Assembly (NCBI RefSeq): GCF_025836995.1 | Contig: NZ_CP107546.1 | Location: forward strand, 434,001 to 498,000 | Length of the DNA stretch: 64,000 nt | Direction of reading: 5' to 3' | Source of the DNA: Microbacterium sp. M28 | GTDB lineage: Bacteria > Actinomycetota > Actinomycetes > Actinomycetales > Microbacteriaceae | Shown: positions 51,114 through 62,184 of the stretch, piece by piece | Layout of the letters: every line of letters starts with the position of its first letter | Numbering within the stretch: position 1 is the first letter of the stretch | Notes under the pieces: model-generated | What the model was told of the DNA's origin: nothing | Databases searched by the model: none | What the model saw: the letters and a program-made list of their open reading frames with translations, nothing else | Program-made: the position numbers and the translations under genes

Positions 51114-51164
51114 GACGAGCCCCACGTGGGACCGACCCCGAAACCACTCCTCGGAGAGGACATC

Positions 51165-52685
51165 ATGCCCAGCACCCGTGTCGTCATCGACCTCGACCTT
51201 CCCGGCGCGACGATCAGCCGTCACCTGTACGGCCACTTCGCCGAGCACCTCGGACGGTGCATCTACGGCGGCTTCTTCGTCGGCGAGGGATCCGACATCC
51301 CGAACGAGGGCGGCATCCGCCTCGACGTCGTCGAGGCGCTGCGCGAGTTGAAGATCCCGAACCTGCGCTGGCCGGGTGGATGCTTCGCCGACGACTACCA
51401 CTGGCGCGACGGCATCGGCCCGCGCGACGAGCGCCCCCGGATGGTCAACTCGCACTGGGGCGACGTCGTCGAGGACAACTCCTTCGGCACGCACGAGTTC
51501 ATGCAGCTGTGCGAGATGCTCGGTGCCGACGCGTACGTGAACGGCAACGTCGGCTCCGGCACGGTCCGTGAGATGAGCGAATGGATCGAGTACCTCACGC
51601 GCGCCGATGACTCGCCGATGGCATCGCTTCGCCGCCAGAACGGTCGCGATGAGCCGTGGAAGGTGCCCTTCTTCGGCATCGGCAACGAGGCGTGGGGATG
51701 TGGTGGCAACATGCGCGCCGAGACCTACGCGGACCTCGCCCGTCAGTACGCGACCTACGTCCGCAACCACGGCGACAACACCGTCTACCGGATCGCCGCA
51801 GGTGCGAACGTCGATGACTACGAGTGGACCGACGTGCTGATGAAGGCGCTCGGATGCCTCGGCTGCGACGGCCAGGGCTCCTCGCCCTACCAGGCGCTCT
51901 CGCTGCACTACTACACGATGAGCGGCTCGTGGGAGAGCAAGGGCTCAGCCACCGAGTTCGACCAGGACGAGTGGTACCTCACGCTGTCCCGTGCGTACCG
52001 CATCGAGGAACTGCTCACCCGGCACAGCACGGTCATGGACCGGCACGACCCGCGGCGGCGCGTCGGCCTCGTCCTGGACGAGTGGGGTACGTGGTGGGAT
52101 GTCGAGCCCGGCACGAACCCCGGGTTCCTGTACCAGCAGAACACGCTCAGGGACGCGCTGGTCGCCAGCGTGCACTTCGACGCCTTCCACCGCCACGCCG
52201 ATCGCCTGGTGATGGCCAACATCGCCCAGACGGTGAACGTGCTGCAGGCGATGCTGCTGACCGACCCGGACACCGGCGCCCTGGTGAAGACCCCGACGTT
52301 CCACGTGTTCGCCATGAACACCGGCCACCACGACGCGCAGGCGCTCGCCGCCCACGTCGTCGACGCGGACACGCGCGCCTCGGACGGTCGCGACCTGCCG
52401 CTGCTGTCGGCCTCCGCATCCACGAAGGACGGCGCGGCCCTCGTCTCGCTGTCGAACCTCGACGCCGAGCAGGCGAGGACGGTCGTGCTCGATCTGCGTG
52501 GCGCCGACGTCGCCGGCTTCAGTGCACGGGTGCTGACGGCGGCATCCACGGCCGAGCACAACACTCCGCAGAATCCGGATGCCGTGGCTCCCGCGGCGCA
52601 CGACGGCATCCGTCGCCACGAGCGAGGACTCGAGGTCGACCTGCCGGCGCACTCCTACGTGACGGTGTCGCTGGAGCTGGCGTGA
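51165..52685 (+). CDS. GH51 alpha-L-arabinofuranosidase
   Basis: This 506-residue GH51 enzyme has acid/base Glu175 in [10 protein letters not shown] and nucleophile Glu307 in [11 protein letters not shown]. The N-terminal barrel part begins [18 protein letters not shown], and a C-terminal beta domain follows. It starts at ATG 51165 with GGAGAGGA upstream. There is no signal peptide. It removes arabinofuranose from arabinan or arabinogalactan oligosaccharides in the cytoplasm. It is the first gene of the operon. Confidence 0.94.
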
Positions 52686-53680
52686 CGCAGGAGGCCTACC
52701 TGTTCGTCTACTTCACCGGCGAGACGGGTGCGGACGACGAGGCGATCCGGTTCGCGGTGACCGCTGGGGACGACCCGCTGGCGGACTGGATCGAACTGGG
52801 CGACGGCGAGCCGCTGATCCGTTCTGTGATGGGGGAGCGCGGTCTGCGAGACCCGCATCTCGTCCGGCATCCGCAGCAGGGCCGCTGGTACCTGATGGCG
52901 ACCGACCTGCGCATCCAGGGCAGGCCGGAGGGCTTCGCCGCGGCGCAGCAGACCGGCTCGCGCGACATCATGGTGTGGGAATCGGCCGACCTCGTCACGT
53001 GGTCCGAACAGCGTCGGCTGACTGTCGCGCCGCCGGATGCCGGAAACGCCTGGGCTCCGGAGGCGGTGTGGGATGCCGAGCGCGAGGAGTTCTTCGTGTT
53101 CTGGGCATCCGCGCTGTACCCGCCGGAGCTGGCACCGGTCGACCGGCGCATCCAGGATTCGTACCAGCGGATGTTCTTCGCGACGACGAGCGACTTCGTG
53201 ACGGTCGGCGAGCCGCACCCATGGATCGACGAGCGGCGAGGCCCCGGTCGGGGGTTCATCGATTCGACGATCGTCCGGGACGCGGGCGCGTACTACCGCT
53301 TCACGAAGGACGAGGCGACGATGCTCCCCGTGCTGGACCGCAGCCGCGACCTGCACGCGCCGGAGTGGGTGCGCATCGCCGACAGGCTCGGACTCGGGCA
53401 GCCCAACCCGTGGGGCGGCACCTTCACCGAGGGTGAGGGGCCGACGGCCTTCCGCTCCGAGCGCGACGGATGCTGGTACCTGTTCATCGACCAGCCCGGC
53501 TACCACGGCGGTGCGGGCTATCTCGCCTTCCGTATCACGGACCTGGATGCCGGGACCCTCGAATCGGTGCCGGCAGAGCTTCCGCGCAGCCCGCGGCACG
53601 GCACCGTCGTGCCGATCTCCGCGGTCGAGCGCGACCGGATGCTGGCGGCGTACGCGACCGGGAGTCTGATCGATGCCTGA
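52682..53680 (+). CDS. GH43-like glycosidase, copy 1
   Basis: This 332-residue five-bladed-propeller protein has a general-base Asp in RDPHLVRH, a middle acidic residue in DST, and an acid Glu candidate in TEGEGPTAF. Unlike most GH43 enzymes it has no extra beta-sandwich. It starts at GTG 52682, overlapping GH51 by GTGA. It is a diverged paralogue of the next gene. It probably acts on arabinan side chains with GH51. Confidence 0.85.
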
Positions 53681-54623
53681 CGGGTATCTGCTCGTGCACT
53701 TCGTCGAGGACCACGAGGGCCACGGCGAGAAGATCTACTTCTCGCTGAGCGTCCGCGACGATCCGCTGCGCTGGACGCGTGCGAACGGCGGAGAGGCCGT
53801 GCTGGAGTCGACGCTCGGCACGACGGGCGTCCGCGACCCGTACCTCGTGCGCGGGGAGGATGAGGCGTTCATCATCGCGACCGATCTGCGGGTGTGGACA
53901 GGCGCGGAGCACGACTGGGACGGGTGGACCCGGCACGGCAGCAGGTCGCTCGTCATCTGGCGTTCGACCGATCTCGTCACGTGGTCCGAACCCTGGCTGA
54001 TCGAGGTCGCGCCGCCCACCGCAGGGATGGCCTGGGCACCGGAGGCGCTCTACGACGCGGCGACGGGCGAGTTCCTGGTGTACTGGTCGAGCTCGCTGTA
54101 CGACGAGGCGGATGCCGCGCACGCCCGTGATTCGTATCCGCGGATCCTGGCGGCGAGGACGACGGACTTCCGTTCGTTCTCGGAGCCGTTCGTGCTCGCG
54201 GACTTCGGACCGGGGCATGGCGTGATCGACCTGACGATGGTCGAGCACGAGGGGCGGACGCATCGTTTCCTGAAATCGACCGATGAGCGGCGGCTGTTCC
54301 AGGAGGATGGCTCGTCGCCGATGTCGTCCGACTTCACGATGGTCGCGTCGCGCATCGCCGACGATCTGTACGAGCACGTCGAGGCGCCGCTGATCTTCTT
54401 CGATGCGAAGGCGGGGTGCTGGTACCTCTGGGTCGATCAGTACTCGGACTGGCCGCAGGGGTACATCGCACTGCGCTCGACCGACCTCGCGGCGGGGGAC
54501 TGGCAGCCGGTGCCGCGCGACGAGTTCGTGCTGCCTGCGAACACGAAGCACGGCGTCGTGGTGCCGCTGCGCCCCGGTGAGTGGGATCGACTCGCCGAGG
54601 CCTTCGGCCCCCTCGATCGTTGA
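53673..54623 (+). CDS. GH43-like glycosidase, copy 2
   Basis: This 316-residue propeller protein is paralogous to copy 1. It has Asp in RDPYLVRGED and an acid Glu candidate in VEAPLIFF. It starts at ATG 53673, overlapping copy 1 by 8 bases. Two adjacent paralogues suggest split specificity (for example different linkages of arabinan). The substrate is not shown by the sequence. Confidence 0.85.
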   Translation: MPDGYLLVHFVEDHEGHGEKIYFSLSVRDDPLRWTRANGGEAVLESTLGTTGVRDPYLVRGEDEAFIIATDLRVWTGAEHDWDGWTRHGSRSLVIWRSTDLVTWSEPWLIEVAPPTAGMAWAPEALYDAATGEFLVYWSSSLYDEADAAHARDSYPRILAARTTDFRSFSEPFVLADFGPGHGVIDLTMVEHEGRTHRFLKSTDERRLFQEDGSSPMSSDFTMVASRIADDLYEHVEAPLIFFDAKAGCWYLWVDQYSDWPQGYIALRSTDLAAGDWQPVPRDEFVLPANTKHGVVVPLRPGEWDRLAEAFGPLDR

Positions 54624-54630
54624 GTGAGGG

Positions 54631-55650
54631 TCAACGAGCGGAGGTGAGAGCGGTCGAGCCGCGGACCACGAGCTCGGGCTGATAGACCACGCTCATGAGG
54701 TCGGGGGCCTCCGTGCCGTTGACGCGGGCGATCAGCAGTTCGGCGGCGGCGCGACCCATCTCGCGCGCGGGCTGCCGCACCGACGTCAGTGGTACCTGGG
54801 CGATCGCGGCGAACTCGATGTCGTCGTACCCCACGACGGCCACGTCCTCCGGAACGCGCACGCCGGAGGCGATCAGCCGGTGCACCAGACCGACCGCGAG
54901 ATGGTCGTTCGAGGTGACGATGCCGTCGGGACGGTCCTCCGGTCGCCGCGCGGCGATCTCGTCACCGAACGCGAGGCCCCGCTGCATGGTGGTGATGGTC
55001 GCCCAGATCGGCTCGATGGTCGTTCCTGGGTGCTCGGCGACGGCGAGCCGAGCACCGGCGAGACGCTCACGGACCTGCCGCACCTCCTCGCGGGCGCCGA
55101 CGAACGCCAGTCGGCGTCGCCCGGTGGCGATCAGATGCTCGGCTGCGAGTCGGCCGCCGGCGACGTCGTCGAGGGACACCGAGGGGATCTCTCCGGAATC
55201 GTCGACCGCGTCCACGAGAACGACGGGCACCCCGCGCCGGCGCAGTCGCTCCTGCCACGCATCCACGGGGCCGAACGGGCTCACCAGCGCGCCCTCCACC
55301 TGCACCCGCTCGAACAGCTCGAGGTGGTCGAGCTCCTTGGCGATGTCGTCGCTCGCATTGCCGACGAGGATCCGCAGGCCGGCGGCGGCCGCGGCATCCT
55401 CCGCGCCGGCGACCATGTCGGCGAAGAAGGGGTTGGCGATGTTGATGACGGTCATCCCGAGCAGCCCGCTCCGACCGACGCGCAGCTGCTGCGCCGCCTG
55501 CAGTGGGACGTAGCCGAGCCGATCACTCGCGGCGCGGACCCGCTCGGCCAGCTCGTCGCTGACGCGTCCAGGTCGATTCAGCGCATTCGAAACGGTGCTG
55601 ATCGATACCCCGGCGAGCTCGGCGACATCCCGGATGCCCACGCGTTTCAC
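54631..55650 (-). CDS. LacI family transcriptional regulator
   Basis: This 339-residue LacI regulator has HTH GIRDVAELAGVSISTVSNALNRPGRVS and hinge LGYVPLQAAQQLRVG. I chose GTG 55650 (MKRVGIRDV), since GGGAGGG lies 4-5 bases upstream; the long open frame to 57750 is only antisense to the giant gene. It is divergent from the CE12-PL11 gene, and several LacI-type sites lie between them, so it probably controls that gene. Confidence 0.92.
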   Translation of the reverse strand: MKRVGIRDVAELAGVSISTVSNALNRPGRVSDELAERVRAASDRLGYVPLQAAQQLRVGRSGLLGMTVINIANPFFADMVAGAEDAAAAAGLRILVGNASDDIAKELDHLELFERVQVEGALVSPFGPVDAWQERLRRRGVPVVLVDAVDDSGEIPSVSLDDVAGGRLAAEHLIATGRRRLAFVGAREEVRQVRERLAGARLAVAEHPGTTIEPIWATITTMQRGLAFGDEIAARRPEDRPDGIVTSNDHLAVGLVHRLIASGVRVPEDVAVVGYDDIEFAAIAQVPLTSVRQPAREMGRAAAELLIARVNGTEAPDLMSVVYQPELVVRGSTALTSAR

Positions 55651-55685
55651 ATCGCCCTCCCTTAGACGCCTGCACTTCTGGCAAT

Positions 55686-55810: not shown

Positions 55811-55872
55811 GCACATTCATCCCCCGCCTCTCCAACGTTTTCCTTTGCCACCGCCGTCAACAGGAGAGAACT

Positions 55873-58800
55873 GTGCCCCACGAGTTCGCCATCCCCGCCC
55901 ATCGAGCCCCGCAACCTTCCGGCACAGCCACGAAGACCACTCGACTCCGCGTCGGCGGGATCATCGCCGCCACCGTGGTCGTGGGATCCCTCATCACGGC
56001 TCCAGCCGCCGCCGCGGTGCTCGCACCGAACGAGGATGGTGCCTGGCGCTTCGACTTCGGCACCGCGTCGAGTCCAGTCGCGGAGGGGCACCAGCAGGTG
56101 CTGACGAGCTCGCTGTACACGCCGGAGGCCGGCTGGGGCGTCACACTCCCCGACGGCGCCTCGCTGTTCGATCGCGACCGCAGTACCGACGGTTCGCCCG
56201 CCGGTGCGATGGAGGACGACTTCATCGCGGGCACGAACTGGGGCTTCGCCCTGGACGGCGTTCCCGAGGGCGACTACGAGGTGACGGTCACGATCGGCGA
56301 CGGGCTCAGCTCGGCATCCGGAACCAACGCGACCCTCACGCTCGAGGGCGTCGCCCAGACGCGCCTGGCATCCGAGCGCGGCACCAACCTGACCACGACG
56401 TTCCCGGTGACGGTGACGGACGGGCAGCTCACGATCGGCGTGACCGGATCCGGGCTCGGCGCCTACATCAACGGTCTGGTCGTGGCACCTGTCACGCCGG
56501 ATGCCCCGGCTGATCTCGTCGCGGCGAAGGTGGCGTGGAACGGAGTCGACCTGACCTGGTCGGCAGCAGAGGGCGCCGCCGAGTACCGCGTGCTTCGCGC
56601 CGACGTCGAGGGTGACACCACCGGCGAGTTCGCGCAGATCGGCGAGTCCGCCGAGCCGACTTACACCGATGCATCCGTGGTGCAGGGCGGTTCGTACGCC
56701 TATGCGATCGTGGCCGCGAGCGCCTACGACCGCGTCTCCTCGCCCTCGGCCGAGGTCCGCTCCGGGGTTATCCCGGAGCTCGTCGCCCCGGAGGCACCGA
56801 CCGACCTGACGATCGCTCAGGTCACCGCCGACGCCGTCGTGCTGGCGTGGTCTCCGGTCGCGAACGGTGACGCGTACGTCCTCGAGCGCGCCGGCGCAGA
56901 TGGCGCCTTCACCGAACTCGCCGTGCTGGAGACCCCCGGCTACACAGATGCCGTGGACACGACGCAGCCGTGGTCGTACCGGGTGACCGCCCGCAACCAG
57001 GTCGGCTCGTCCCCGGCATCCGACGCGGTGGTCTCGACGATCTACACGGCACCGGCTCCGATCCCCGCCGGCGACGTCGTCACGTTCGACTTCGGCGCGG
57101 GCCAGGTCGCCGACGGTGCGCTCGCCGTCACCTCCGCGACCGCGTACGACGCGGCGTGGGGCTACGGATTCTCCACCGCACCGGCATCCGCGACCCCTGA
57201 CATCGACCGCGGCGGCGACGACCCGCTGCGCAGCGATTTCGTCGCGGCGGCCGGCGCGACGTTCGAGATCGACCTGGGAGCAGGCGACTACTCGGTCCAG
57301 GTCGTCGCCGGCGACGCCGAAGCGGCGAGCACGACGACCATCACGGCCGAGAGCATCGCCAAGGTCCAGGCCAATCCGCAGGCGGCCGGTTCGTACCTCG
57401 AGATGGCCTTCCCGATCGCTCTGGTCGACGGGCGGCTGACCCTGCAGATCGCGGGGGATGCCGCGGCGCTGAACGCCCTCACCATCACCCGCCTGCCGGC
57501 GCGCGTCGCCGGCGCCATCGGCACCGCGTACATCACGGGCGATTCGACCGTGCAGACCTACGACCCCATCGCGTACGCGCCGCAGGCCGGCTGGGGGCAG
57601 ATGATCGACCGGTTCTTCGCCGACGACATCGCGTTCGCCAACCACGCGATCGGCGGTCGGTCCTCGAAGAACTTCATCACGCAGGGCCGGTTGGACGAGG
57701 TGCTGCGCAGCATCCGTCCCGGTGACTACCTGATGGTCCAGTTCGGGCACAACGACGCCACGCAGGGAGTGGATGACCGCTACGCGAGCCCGGCCGATTA
57801 CAAGGAGTATCTGCGCGTCTACGTCGAGGGTGCGCGTCAGCGCGGGGCCACTCCGATCCTCGTGACGCCGGTGTCTCGGCGCTCCTTCAACGCGGAGACG
57901 GGGGAGTTCAACGTCAGCTTCCCGGAGTACGTCGCCAAGATGACGGAGCTCGCCGTCGAGGAGGACGTGCCGCTCGTCGACCTCTCGGCATCAAGCCGGG
58001 CGTACCTGAACGAGATCGGACCGGATGCCGCCAAGGCGGTCTTCCTGCACGTCGACCCTGGCGTGTTCCCGAACCGGCCCGCCGGTACCGTCGACGACAC
58101 GCACTTCCAGGAGTACGGCGCGATCCAGATGGCGCGACTCGTGGCGCAGGGGGTCGCGCAGCTCGATGACCCGCTGGCGGAGAAGGTCGCCGACATCCAG
58201 CCGCCCGCCGAGGTGCCCTCGGCTCCGCAGAACGTGGTCGCCGGAGCCATCAGCAACGGAGGCGCGACCCTGCAGTGGGACGCATCGCCGACCGCCGACA
58301 TCTACAAGATCTACCGGCAGGCGGTCACCGACCCCGATCTCGCCTGGTCGCTGGTGGGCATGGTGACCCAGACCAGCTCGATCGTGCAGGGCCTGGCCGA
58401 AGGCACCGCATATCGCTACCGCGTCGTCGCCGTCAACGGTCGAGGAGAATCCGAGCCGAGCGCGGTGGTGACGTTCACCACGAAGCAGGCCCTGTACAAG
58501 TACGATTTCCAGCTCGCCGGCAACCCGGTCATGGCCGGGTACACCGAGGTCACCCCCGATCTGACGTACAGCGAGGAGCGCGGGTACGGCTTCGTCGTCG
58601 CCCCCGGCGCCGCAGCCGGTCGTGACCGCGGCGCGGCGGAGGGATCCGACGATCTCGTGCGCGACTTCGTCCTCCCCGGAGACAGCGCGACGTTCGCGCT
58701 CGACGTGCCGGACGGCACGTACTCGGTCAAGACCTACTCGGGCGACTGGATCGGCTCGACCCGCACCAGCTTCCGGGTCGAGGGCAAGGACGCCGGCAGC

Positions 58801-61800
58801 GGCAACGCCGGCCGAGGCAGCGTGAACTCGACTCTGCGCGGCCCGTTCCTCGTCACGGACGGACAACTGAGCGTCGAGGTGTACGGCGCGGCCGCAGGCA
58901 CCCGGTTGAACGGCCTCGAGGTCACTCCGATCCTGCTCGGCCCGACCGGACTCGAGGTCGCCGACGTGGATGCCGACCCGAACGCGCCGGCCGTCTCGCT
59001 CATCTGGGATGCCGAGCCGGGCCTCACCTGGAACGTCTACCGCCAGTCGCCGTTCGACGCCGTGCCGGTGGCCGTCGGAACGACCACGGAGCCGGCGTAC
59101 GTCGACACCACGGCGCGCGTCGGACTGGACTACGACTATCACGTCACGGCCGTCGACCAGACGAAGCTCGAGTCGGTCCCCTCGACCACGGTGACGGCAT
59201 CCCTCGTCGACCCGGAGGCGACAGCGCCGTCCGCACCGACGGACCTCGTCGTCGAGTCGATCGAGAAGCGCTCGATCGAGTTCTCCTGGGCCGAGCCCCT
59301 CGGCGCGCAGTACTACCTCGTCTTCCGCTCGGAGGTCGACGGCGAGCGCGGAGAGCTGATCGGCATCGCCGACACCAGCCGGTACACCGACACCGGCGTC
59401 CTCACCACGATCCCCTACTACTACACGACCGTCGCGGTGAACGCCGCTGGCGCGGGAGACGCGTCGGAGCAGCTCGCGACCGACGCGGTCACGGTGCTGC
59501 AGCGTCAGGCCGAGTACCTGGATCGCGCACCTGCCGTCGTGGCGACCGATGCCGGAAACCTGGTGTCCTGGCGCATGCTCGGCACCGACCCGGACGACGT
59601 GGCCTTCCACGTCTACCGCGACGGCAAGCGCATCACCGCCGAGCCGATCGCCGACTCGACGAACTTCGTCGACGCCGCAGGCACCGCGGCATCCGCGTAC
59701 TTCGTGACGAAGGTGCTGAACGGGGTCGAGACCACCGAGACCGAGGAGTTCGGCGTGCAGGACGGCGCGTACCGTTCGGTGCCGCTGGACAAGCCGGCCG
59801 ACGCCTACACGAAGGACGGGCAGCCGTACACCTACAACGCCAACGACACGAGCGTCGGCGACGTGGACGGCGACGGCCAGTACGAGCTGATCGTCAAGTG
59901 GGACCCGTCCAACGCGCAGGACAACTCGAAGGGCGGGTACACCGGCAACGTGTACCTGGACGCGTACGAGCTGGACGGCACGCGACTGTGGCGCATCGAC
60001 GGCGGCGTCAACATCCGCGCCGGGGCGCACTACACGCAGTTCCAGGTCTTCGACTACGACGGCGACGGCCGTGCCGAGGTGATCATGAAGACCGCGGACG
60101 GCGCGATCGACGGCGCAGGACAGCCGATCGGCACCGCGGGCGCCGACCATCGCAACAGCTCGGGGTACGTGCTCACCGGACCCGAGTACCTCACCGCCTT
60201 CGACGGTGCCACGGGCGCGGCGATCGACACGGTCGACTACACGCCGCCGCGCGGCGACGTCGGCGCCTGGGGCGACACCTACGGCAACCGCGTCGACCGG
60301 TTCCTCGCCGGTACCGCGTACCTGGACGGCGAGCACCCCAGCGCGATCTTCAGCCGCGGGTACTACACGCGTGCGGTCGTCGCCGCGTACGACTTCGACG
60401 GAACCGAGCTGACCCAGCGGTGGGTGCTCGACTCGAACGACGCGGGCGCCGAGGCGCTGTACGGTCAGGGCAACCACAACCTGTCGGTGGCCGACGTCGA
60501 CGGCGACGCCAAGGACGAGATCGTCTTCGGTTCGGCGACGATCGACGACGACGGCTCGCTGCTGTACTCGACCGGACTCGGACACGGTGACGCGATCCAC
60601 GTGTCCGACCTCGTCCCCTCGAACGCAGGACTCGAGGTCTTCGCCGCGCACGAGGACATGGGCGCGTCGCAGAACGCCGGCGCCACCATGCGAGATGCCC
60701 GCACCGGTGACGTGCTGTGGTCGATCCCGGCGGTGAAGGACACCGGGCGGGCCGCCGCCGGCGACATCGACCCGCGCTACGCGGGCGCCGAGGGCTGGGC
60801 GATCGGCGGGGATGCCGCGTGGAACTCGCCCGTGGGCCAGCTGATGTCCGCGGACGGCGAGCTGATCGGGGAGCAGATCCCCGCGGCCAACTTCCTCGCC
60901 TGGTTCGACGGGGATCCCCTGCGCGAGATCGTCGACCACACCTTCGACCAGGCGGCCTACCGCGGGTACCCGACCGTGTCGAAGTGGAACTGGGAGACCG
61001 GGGAGTCCGAGGTGATCCTCGCCGATGAAGGGGCGCGCTCCAACAACGGCACGAAGGGCAACCCCAACATCCAGGCCGATCTGTTCGGCGACTGGCGGGA
61101 GGAGATCGCGTGGCGGTCCGCCGACTCCAGTGAGCTGCGGATCTACTCGACCACCGACGAGACCGACCTGCGCATCCGCACGCTGATGCACGACCCGGTC
61201 TACCGTCTGTCGGTCGCGTGGCAGAACACCGGGTACAACCAGCCGACGCAGACGAGCTTCTTCCTCGGCGACGGGATGGAGCAGCCCGCTGCGCCGAAGA
61301 TCGCGGTGACCGGCGACCCCTCCGGCGCCTCGGACACGACGGCACCGGTCCTCGCAGGGATCCCCGCCGACGGGACGCTGCTCGCGAGCACGTCGACCTT
61401 CACGGTCGACGTCACGGCGGCGGATGGCGAGTCCGGTGTCCGCAACCTCGACATCGCCTTCGACGGGCGACCCGTCGCCGCTGGCGAGCAGATCGACCTC
61501 GCGGATCTCGTCGGTCCGCACACGTTCACCGTGAACGCGGTCAATCACGACGGCCTCGTGTCCTCGGCATCCGTGCAGCTGCTGGTGTTCGACGATGAAG
61601 GCGCGTCCAAGGCCCCGGGCCGAGGGGTGCTCTCCAGCGACTCCGGCTACGAGGACGGCCTGCGTGACGGCGAGTACACCGTCTCGATGAACCTGTGGCA
61701 CGGCGTCAACGGCGCGGTGTTCCGGCTCTACGAGAACGGGGAGCTGATCTCGACGAAGCTGCTCGACGCGAACTCGCCCACTGCGCAGCTGGCGACGGTC

Positions 61801-62184
61801 GACGTCGCGGGCAAGGAGAACGGCACCTACGTGTACACCGGCGAGCTCGTCAACGCGGCCGGGACGACCGCCACGACATCGGTCACGGTGAAGGTGAGGG
61901 ATGCCGCTCCGGCCACGCCGGTCCTGTCGCACGACAACCGCGACAGGGACGGCGACTACACCGTCACCGCGAACCTGTGGTGGGGCACGAACGCCACGGC
62001 GTACCGACTGTTCGAGAACGGTGTGATGATCGACGAGCAGGCGCTCGCCGCGGCATCCCCGAACGCGCAGCGTGCCGTCACGCACGTGACCGGACGGGCG
62101 CCGGGGACCCACACCTACGTCGCCGAGTTCTCCAACGCGGCCGGGACGACGAGTTCGAAGGAGATCACGGTGACCGTGCGGTAG
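55873..62184 (+). CDS. Secreted multidomain CE12 acetylesterase - PL11 rhamnogalacturonan lyase
   Basis: This 2103-residue secreted protein starts at GTG 55873 (AGGAG about 7 bases upstream) with a Sec signal peptide, cleaved near residue 48 (APAAAA). In order: malectin-like domain (about 50-205), two FN3 domains (209-395), second malectin-like domain (400-545), CE12/SGNH acetylesterase (550-770), FN3 (780-870), third malectin-like domain (874-1015), two FN3 domains (1020-1205), PL11 lyase (about 1211-1805), an Ig-like domain, and two similar tail domains (1912-2103). The CE12 catalytic residues are Ser558 in GDST, His626-Asn627 in GHND, and Asp741/His744. The PL11 part has YesW-like Asp/Gly-rich metal repeats (VGDVDGDGQYE). 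It has no cell-wall anchor. It should deacetylate and then cut RG-I outside the cell. Confidence 0.93.
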   Translation: MPHEFAIPAHRAPQPSGTATKTTRLRVGGIIAATVVVGSLITAPAAAAVLAPNEDGAWRFDFGTASSPVAEGHQQVLTSSLYTPEAGWGVTLPDGASLFDRDRSTDGSPAGAMEDDFIAGTNWGFALDGVPEGDYEVTVTIGDGLSSASGTNATLTLEGVAQTRLASERGTNLTTTFPVTVTDGQLTIGVTGSGLGAYINGLVVAPVTPDAPADLVAAKVAWNGVDLTWSAAEGAAEYRVLRADVEGDTTGEFAQIGESAEPTYTDASVVQGGSYAYAIVAASAYDRVSSPSAEVRSGVIPELVAPEAPTDLTIAQVTADAVVLAWSPVANGDAYVLERAGADGAFTELAVLETPGYTDAVDTTQPWSYRVTARNQVGSSPASDAVVSTIYTAPAPIPAGDVVTFDFGAGQVADGALAVTSATAYDAAWGYGFSTAPASATPDIDRGGDDPLRSDFVAAAGATFEIDLGAGDYSVQVVAGDAEAASTTTITAESIAKVQANPQAAGSYLEMAFPIALVDGRLTLQIAGDAAALNALTITRLPARVAGAIGTAYITGDSTVQTYDPIAYAPQAGWGQMIDRFFADDIAFANHAIGGRSSKNFITQGRLDEVLRSIRPGDYLMVQFGHNDATQGVDDRYASPADYKEYLRVYVEGARQRGATPILVTPVSRRSFNAETGEFNVSFPEYVAKMTELAVEEDVPLVDLSASSRAYLNEIGPDAAKAVFLHVDPGVFPNRPAGTVDDTHFQEYGAIQMARLVAQGVAQLDDPLAEKVADIQPPAEVPSAPQNVVAGAISNGGATLQWDASPTADIYKIYRQAVTDPDLAWSLVGMVTQTSSIVQGLAEGTAYRYRVVAVNGRGESEPSAVVTFTTKQALYKYDFQLAGNPVMAGYTEVTPDLTYSEERGYGFVVAPGAAAGRDRGAAEGSDDLVRDFVLPGDSATFALDVPDGTYSVKTYSGDWIGSTRTSFRVEGKDAGSGNAGRGSVNSTLRGPFLVTDGQLSVEVYGAAAGTRLNGLEVTPILLGPTGLEVADVDADPNAPAVSLIWDAEPGLTWNVYRQSPFDAVPVAVGTTTEPAYVDTTARVGLDYDYHVTAVDQTKLESVPSTTVTASLVDPEATAPSAPTDLVVESIEKRSIEFSWAEPLGAQYYLVFRSEVDGERGELIGIADTSRYTDTGVLTTIPYYYTTVAVNAAGAGDASEQLATDAVTVLQRQAEYLDRAPAVVATDAGNLVSWRMLGTDPDDVAFHVYRDGKRITAEPIADSTNFVDAAGTAASAYFVTKVLNGVETTETEEFGVQDGAYRSVPLDKPADAYTKDGQPYTYNANDTSVGDVDGDGQYELIVKWDPSNAQDNSKGGYTGNVYLDAYELDGTRLWRIDGGVNIRAGAHYTQFQVFDYDGDGRAEVIMKTADGAIDGAGQPIGTAGADHRNSSGYVLTGPEYLTAFDGATGAAIDTVDYTPPRGDVGAWGDTYGNRVDRFLAGTAYLDGEHPSAIFSRGYYTRAVVAAYDFDGTELTQRWVLDSNDAGAEALYGQGNHNLSVADVDGDAKDEIVFGSATIDDDGSLLYSTGLGHGDAIHVSDLVPSNAGLEVFAAHEDMGASQNAGATMRDARTGDVLWSIPAVKDTGRAAAGDIDPRYAGAEGWAIGGDAAWNSPVGQLMSADGELIGEQIPAANFLAWFDGDPLREIVDHTFDQAAYRGYPTVSKWNWETGESEVILADEGARSNNGTKGNPNIQADLFGDWREEIAWRSADSSELRIYSTTDETDLRIRTLMHDPVYRLSVAWQNTGYNQPTQTSFFLGDGMEQPAAPKIAVTGDPSGASDTTAPVLAGIPADGTLLASTSTFTVDVTAADGESGVRNLDIAFDGRPVAAGEQIDLADLVGPHTFTVNAVNHDGLVSSASVQLLVFDDEGASKAPGRGVLSSDSGYEDGLRDGEYTVSMNLWHGVNGAVFRLYENGELISTKLLDANSPTAQLATVDVAGKENGTYVYTGELVNAAGTTATTSVTVKVRDAAPATPVLSHDNRDRDGDYTVTANLWWGTNATAYRLFENGVMIDEQALAAASPNAQRAVTHVTGRAPGTHTYVAEFSNAAGTTSSKEITVTVR

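Follow-up and report, generated by a model that had tools for sequence, protein, structure and literature searches.

A further CE12-PL11 fusion protein, predicted to be secreted, in Microbacterium sp. M28: a known, widespread arrangement with additional end domains

Proteins in which a CE12-type esterase and a PL11 rhamnogalacturonan lyase share one chain have been described before: 50 CE12:PL11_1 proteins are listed in CAZy, HUW50_16055 of Metabacillus sp. KUDC1714 has been modelled and the same synergy between the two activities proposed, and no CE12:PL11 protein had been characterised as of 2023 (PMC10483417). We found no later assay of any such protein in the open-licence literature. In the cellulosomes of Clostridium thermocellum and Acetivibrio clariflavus, the same enzyme families occur with binding modules, as Doc-CBM35-PL11 and CE12-Doc-CBM35-CE12 proteins (PMC4711584, PMC12037645), but these are separate chains united on a scaffoldin, contrary to the single chain described here. 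Among relatives of solved structure, YesX and YesW of Bacillus subtilis are lyases that stand alone and carry no esterase, and neither YxiM (2o14) nor Aspergillus RGAE (1deo) is fused to a lyase.

We analysed a window of 64,000 nucleotides of Microbacterium sp. M28 (contig NZ_CP107546.1, positions 434,001 to 498,000), in which one gene on the forward strand (55873..62184) was identified as a CE12-PL11 fusion through its domains, structural relatives and comparisons within the genus. As the first-pass annotation had read it, the frame (+1) opens with GTG at 55873 and continues uninterrupted to a stop at 62184, giving 2103 amino acids, and it has a strong third-position bias (GC 0.90). This start is supported by an AGGAG, read directly, that resembles a ribosome-binding site 6 nt before the GTG (55862..55866, +), and by a relative (G100, 81% identity) whose alignment with the fusion protein starts at residue 1. 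The N-terminus (residues 1 to ~48; 55873..56016, +; TKTTRLR...GGIIAATVVVGSLITAPAAAA) looks by eye like a signal peptide, from which the protein is predicted to be secreted.

Pfam recognised three PF21254 stretches, FN3 domains, a GDSL/SGNH esterase (residues 556-756) and two PL11 models (1211-1808) in this protein, and the domains follow one another on the forward strand. The chain opens with a galactose-binding-like domain of PF21254 type (GBD1, 56026..56487; Pfam and the architectures of relatives) and two FN3-like domains (56491..57048; Pfam, and a match of residues 188-388 to a titin FN3 tandem). A second PF21254 domain (GBD2, 57076..57492; Pfam and comparison with YxiM) forms a YxiM-like unit with the CE12-type SGNH acetylesterase (57514..58167; Pfam, solved relatives and alignment). 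An FN3 domain separates the two enzymes (58198..58482; Pfam match, residues 783-868), followed by a third domain of PF21254 type (GBD3, 58486..58917; Pfam), two FN3-like domains that precede the lyase (58924..59496; Pfam, solved structures and AlphaFold) and the PL11 rhamnogalacturonan lyase domain itself (59503..61308; Pfam and alignment with YesX and YesW). Three Ig-like domains close the protein, the first at 61330..61587 (sequence comparison and AlphaFold) and the others as a tandem pair of ChitinaseA_N type at 61630..62181 (Pfam), common to other CAZymes of the genus. Three of the FN3 domains pass Pfam unaided, the other two being assigned from their position, FN3 matches among solved structures and AlphaFold strands. 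The PF21254 domains had been labelled malectin-like, a label that was ruled out, as the matches are to AGA-YXIM_GBD (PF21254) and no Pfam malectin match appears in the fusion protein up to E = 1. An AlphaFold model of residues 402-1208 built the domains well, but its pTM of 0.67 leaves their relative placement tentative. The GBD and Ig-like domains are probably carbohydrate-binding modules or spacers.

Both enzymes are thus present on one chain by Pfam and by solved relatives, the esterase N-terminal and the lyase C-terminal, as had been claimed. The CE12 assignment of the esterase part, which carries the GDSL match (PF00657/PF13472, residues 556-756), is based on its matches to YxiM (9e-43) and RGAE (6.5e-8), YxiM being matched along its length by the GBD2-esterase unit. 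The SGNH motifs are found at Ser558, Gly595, Asn627 and Asp741-x-x-His744, as in RGAE, with the catalytic Ser558, Asn627, Asp741 and His744 placed exactly as first reported; wherever the fused proteins are aligned, these four CE12 residues never vary. The lyase part scores 107 and 803 bits with PF18370 and PF21348 over residues 1211-1808 (cut-offs 27.8 and 27) and is matched over its full length by solved YesX (1.8e-225) and YesW (1.8e-215), as well as by B. licheniformis RGL11; what had been described as PL11 repeats amounts to a single, complete catalytic domain. Of the 123 proteins aligned, all have Arg1626 and 122 have Lys1728 and Tyr1788, the corresponding Arg, Lys and Tyr of PL11 enzymes being known to bind substrate (PMC8787155) and being conserved in YesX and YesW.

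As in the window protein, CE12 comes first in HUW50_16055, a binding domain lies between and PL11 comes last; the middle domain, in the same place as our GBD3, is annotated there as CBM35 (PMC10483417), as against PF21254 here. Relative to HUW50_16055, the window protein adds an N-terminal GBD-FN3-FN3 and the three C-terminal Ig-like domains, while Metabacillus crassostreae and Sediminibacillus loci have the full core GBD-CE12-FN3-GBD-FN3-FN3-PL11 in common with it. The CE12:PL11 fusion is a known, widespread arrangement, of which the window protein is a further member with extra domains at its ends.

The breadth of this arrangement was assessed in several genome sets. Within the genus, 19 of 149 genomes carry the fusion (this one and 18 others). 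In a scan of named genomes, the best 80 of 455 relatives were kept, and all 80 were single-frame CE12-PL11 proteins with the same core, a set that favours this core because it was ranked by similarity; one of them (L116) ends at a contig end and is therefore without the first GBD. These best 80 span Actinomycetota and Bacillota, with Microbacterium, Arthrobacter, Pseudarthrobacter, Cellulomonas, Demequina, Isoptericola, Kribbella, Tessaracoccus, Paenibacillus, Cohnella, Metabacillus and others. A fairer draw, seeded with PL11 in 396 genomes of the order and inspecting the long-frame PL11 matches rather than every short one, found PL11 in 62 genomes and the fusion in 30 of those 62, and all 27 new fused proteins had the identical core and order. 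Chance is excluded, because dozens of independent genomes show this same architecture. CE12:PL11 fusions are common in plant-associated Actinomycetota, and the earlier statement that the two enzymes usually occur separately gives way to these counts and to the published fusions (PMC10483417).

Some loci depart from this pattern. One (L196, G1146:C22:12600-22200) has, on the same strand, a GBD-CE12-FN3-GBD frame of 1489 aa that is still open where the stretch ends and a separate 1421-aa PL11 frame, possibly a split form or a differently built pair. In Pseudarthrobacter sp. NamE2 (L068), two standalone GBD-CE12 proteins lie just upstream of the fused gene. Several PL11 matches in other families of the phylum and the order (L120, L155, L165 and others) include a single in-frame stop (TGA, TAG or TAA) and could be pseudogenes, matches overrunning the true stop or assembly errors.

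The neighbourhood of the gene includes an alpha-L-arabinofuranosidase (PF06964, GH51-type; 51162..52685, +; Pfam), two GH43-like proteins (52682..54623, +; under the Pfam cut-off) and, divergent from the fusion gene, a LacI-family regulator (54631..55665, -). Besides these GH51-type and GH43-like enzymes, the region encodes GH42, GH35 and GH28 enzymes, galactokinase, galactose-1-phosphate uridylyltransferase, an epimerase, parts of sugar ABC transport and LacI regulators, with a GFO/IDH-DUF993-isomerase-like set downstream. These surroundings fit the use of RG-I that bears arabinan and galactan side chains. Across the whole host genome there is a single PL11 protein, together with one other CE12-like protein. 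Although unsaturated rhamnogalacturonan products are expected from the lyase, no GH88 or GH105 scored above cut-off in the genome, which means that the enzyme normally following, for unsaturated rhamnogalacturonan disaccharides, is missing or different; a sub-threshold GH88/GH105 match (19.6 bits) in a 403-residue protein is probably unrelated.

Taken together, the window protein is very probably, judging from its sequence, a secreted bifunctional enzyme that degrades RG-I, a substrate first proposed from the sequence and supported, as a prediction, by the enzyme families and by the neighbouring arabinan, galactan and pectin genes. Its CE12 part would strip acetyl groups from the galacturonate of the RG-I backbone, its PL11 part would cleave rhamnose-galacturonate bonds via beta-elimination, and in the host the enzyme would feed a pathway that uses RG-I together with its side chains of arabinan and galactan. 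That a sequencing or assembly error joined two genes, an explanation raised at the outset, has a negligible probability and is refuted by the relatives: the same fusion occurs in 19 genomes out of 149 in the genus, this one included, and in many other genera, with relatives that are 80% identical along their whole length. It is rather improbable, too, that the esterase is not specific for RG-I and that the two activities share a chain and not a substrate, other acetylated pectin or xylan being the candidates: CE12 members act on rhamnogalacturonan, pectin and xylan (PMC10483417), and NCBIfam gives a partial match to the pectin acetylesterase PaeY, far under its cut-off, but Arg596 of block II is invariant in the fused proteins, also present in RGAE and replaced in the seven standalone CE12s compared, and the fusion has been kept across two phyla.

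How the lyase cuts is a finer question. YesX is exo-acting (PMC9314435, PMC7596534), whereas YesW, like most characterised PL11 enzymes, is endo-acting (PMC8787155). The active-site loop has 13-15 residues in all 102 fused rows aligned (a few genomes being entered twice); YesX has 14 there, and YesW and RGL11 have 5 each. In the window protein it has 15 (WAIGGDAAWNSPVGQ; 60796..60840, +; alignment) and occupies the YesX position. The loop of YesX was reportedly shown to be the cause of its exo mode by Ochiai et al. 2009. Because every fused member has this long loop, we slightly favour a fused lyase that acts from chain ends in the manner of YesX, and the likely mode would be exo-lytic cutting aided by deacetylation in cis. 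The competing reading, somewhat less probable yet a serious one, is that the fused lyase has the endo mode of YesW, the long loop leaving the cleft unblocked and the esterase opening acetylated stretches for random cutting. It agrees with the endo mode of the majority of PL11 enzymes, with the sequence of the fused loop, which is unlike that of YesX, and with 11 fused rows whose second loop is short (9), these being from Bacillota in every case checked; against it stand the first loop, close to YesX length in all fused members, and Paenibacillus woosongensis and Metabacillus crassostreae, in which a short loop (6) in the standalone PL11 stands beside a long one in the fused PL11, a contrast that repeats, at the level of loop length, the YesW/YesX division. 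Loop length is an indirect indicator of mode, and long loops are not confined to fused proteins, since they are also frequent in standalone PL11s of Actinomycetota. Nor is deacetylation always needed by PL11 enzymes, since BT4175 releases acetylated oligomers from native celery RG-I (PMC13154352). The processive attack suggested in the first-pass annotation finds no indication in the sequence, the loop resembling that of exo-acting YesX.

The esterase His and the lyase Arg were 879 ± 4.4 residues apart (range 851-886) in a set of 99 proteins, most of which came from the similarity-ranked scan, while the parts before and after this interval varied between 137 and 887 and between 186 and 752 residues (lengths taken from stop to stop, with a few proteins cut by contig ends). 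A cruder, motif-based measure in the PL11-seeded draw gave 850-913. With distant members, the spacer domains share 33-61% identity and the enzymes 59-79%, and since the interval is near-fixed, the spacer is conserved by length more than by sequence, which may reflect selection on distance or merely an absence of domain shuffling within the core. In quick trees with few outgroups, the 99 fused rows of CE12 fell on one side of a supported branch, with one phylum change among them, and the fused/standalone label switched four times in the PL11 tree, which would fit few origins followed by losses of CE12, for example in the family's GBD-FN3-FN3-PL11 proteins. A single old fusion event is likely, as far as these trees go, and not proved. 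That the fixed interval and the universal YesX-type loop reflect one conserved machine, in which an exo-lyase is served by its own-chain deacetylase clearing acetyl groups that stall it at the chain end, at a distance set by FN3-GBD-FN3-FN3 and by descent from one fusion common to Actinomycetota and Bacillota, is a speculative reading that we consider unlikely in this full form. The loop and the fixed spacing are the testable parts of an otherwise largely ordinary fusion: were this reading true, these proteins would be natural self-clearing exo-lyases for acetylated RG-I, useful in work on pectin structure, and the FN3-GBD-FN3-FN3 spacer would offer a test of whether active-site distance matters in multi-enzyme proteins.

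The C-terminus was modelled by AlphaFold as confident Ig-like sandwiches (pLDDT 92), and a specific fold or anchor role was rejected, as Foldseek returned generic matches only (TM <0.4). The fusion protein is the only occurrence of the tandem Ig-like pair (61630-62181; NLWWGxN...YENG) in this genome, and in the same genus the pair also terminates secreted GH53, GH43, GH59 and GH32 CAZymes (L200, L202, L203, L204, L206) that are unrelated to the fusion protein; it looks like a shared module for binding or retention.
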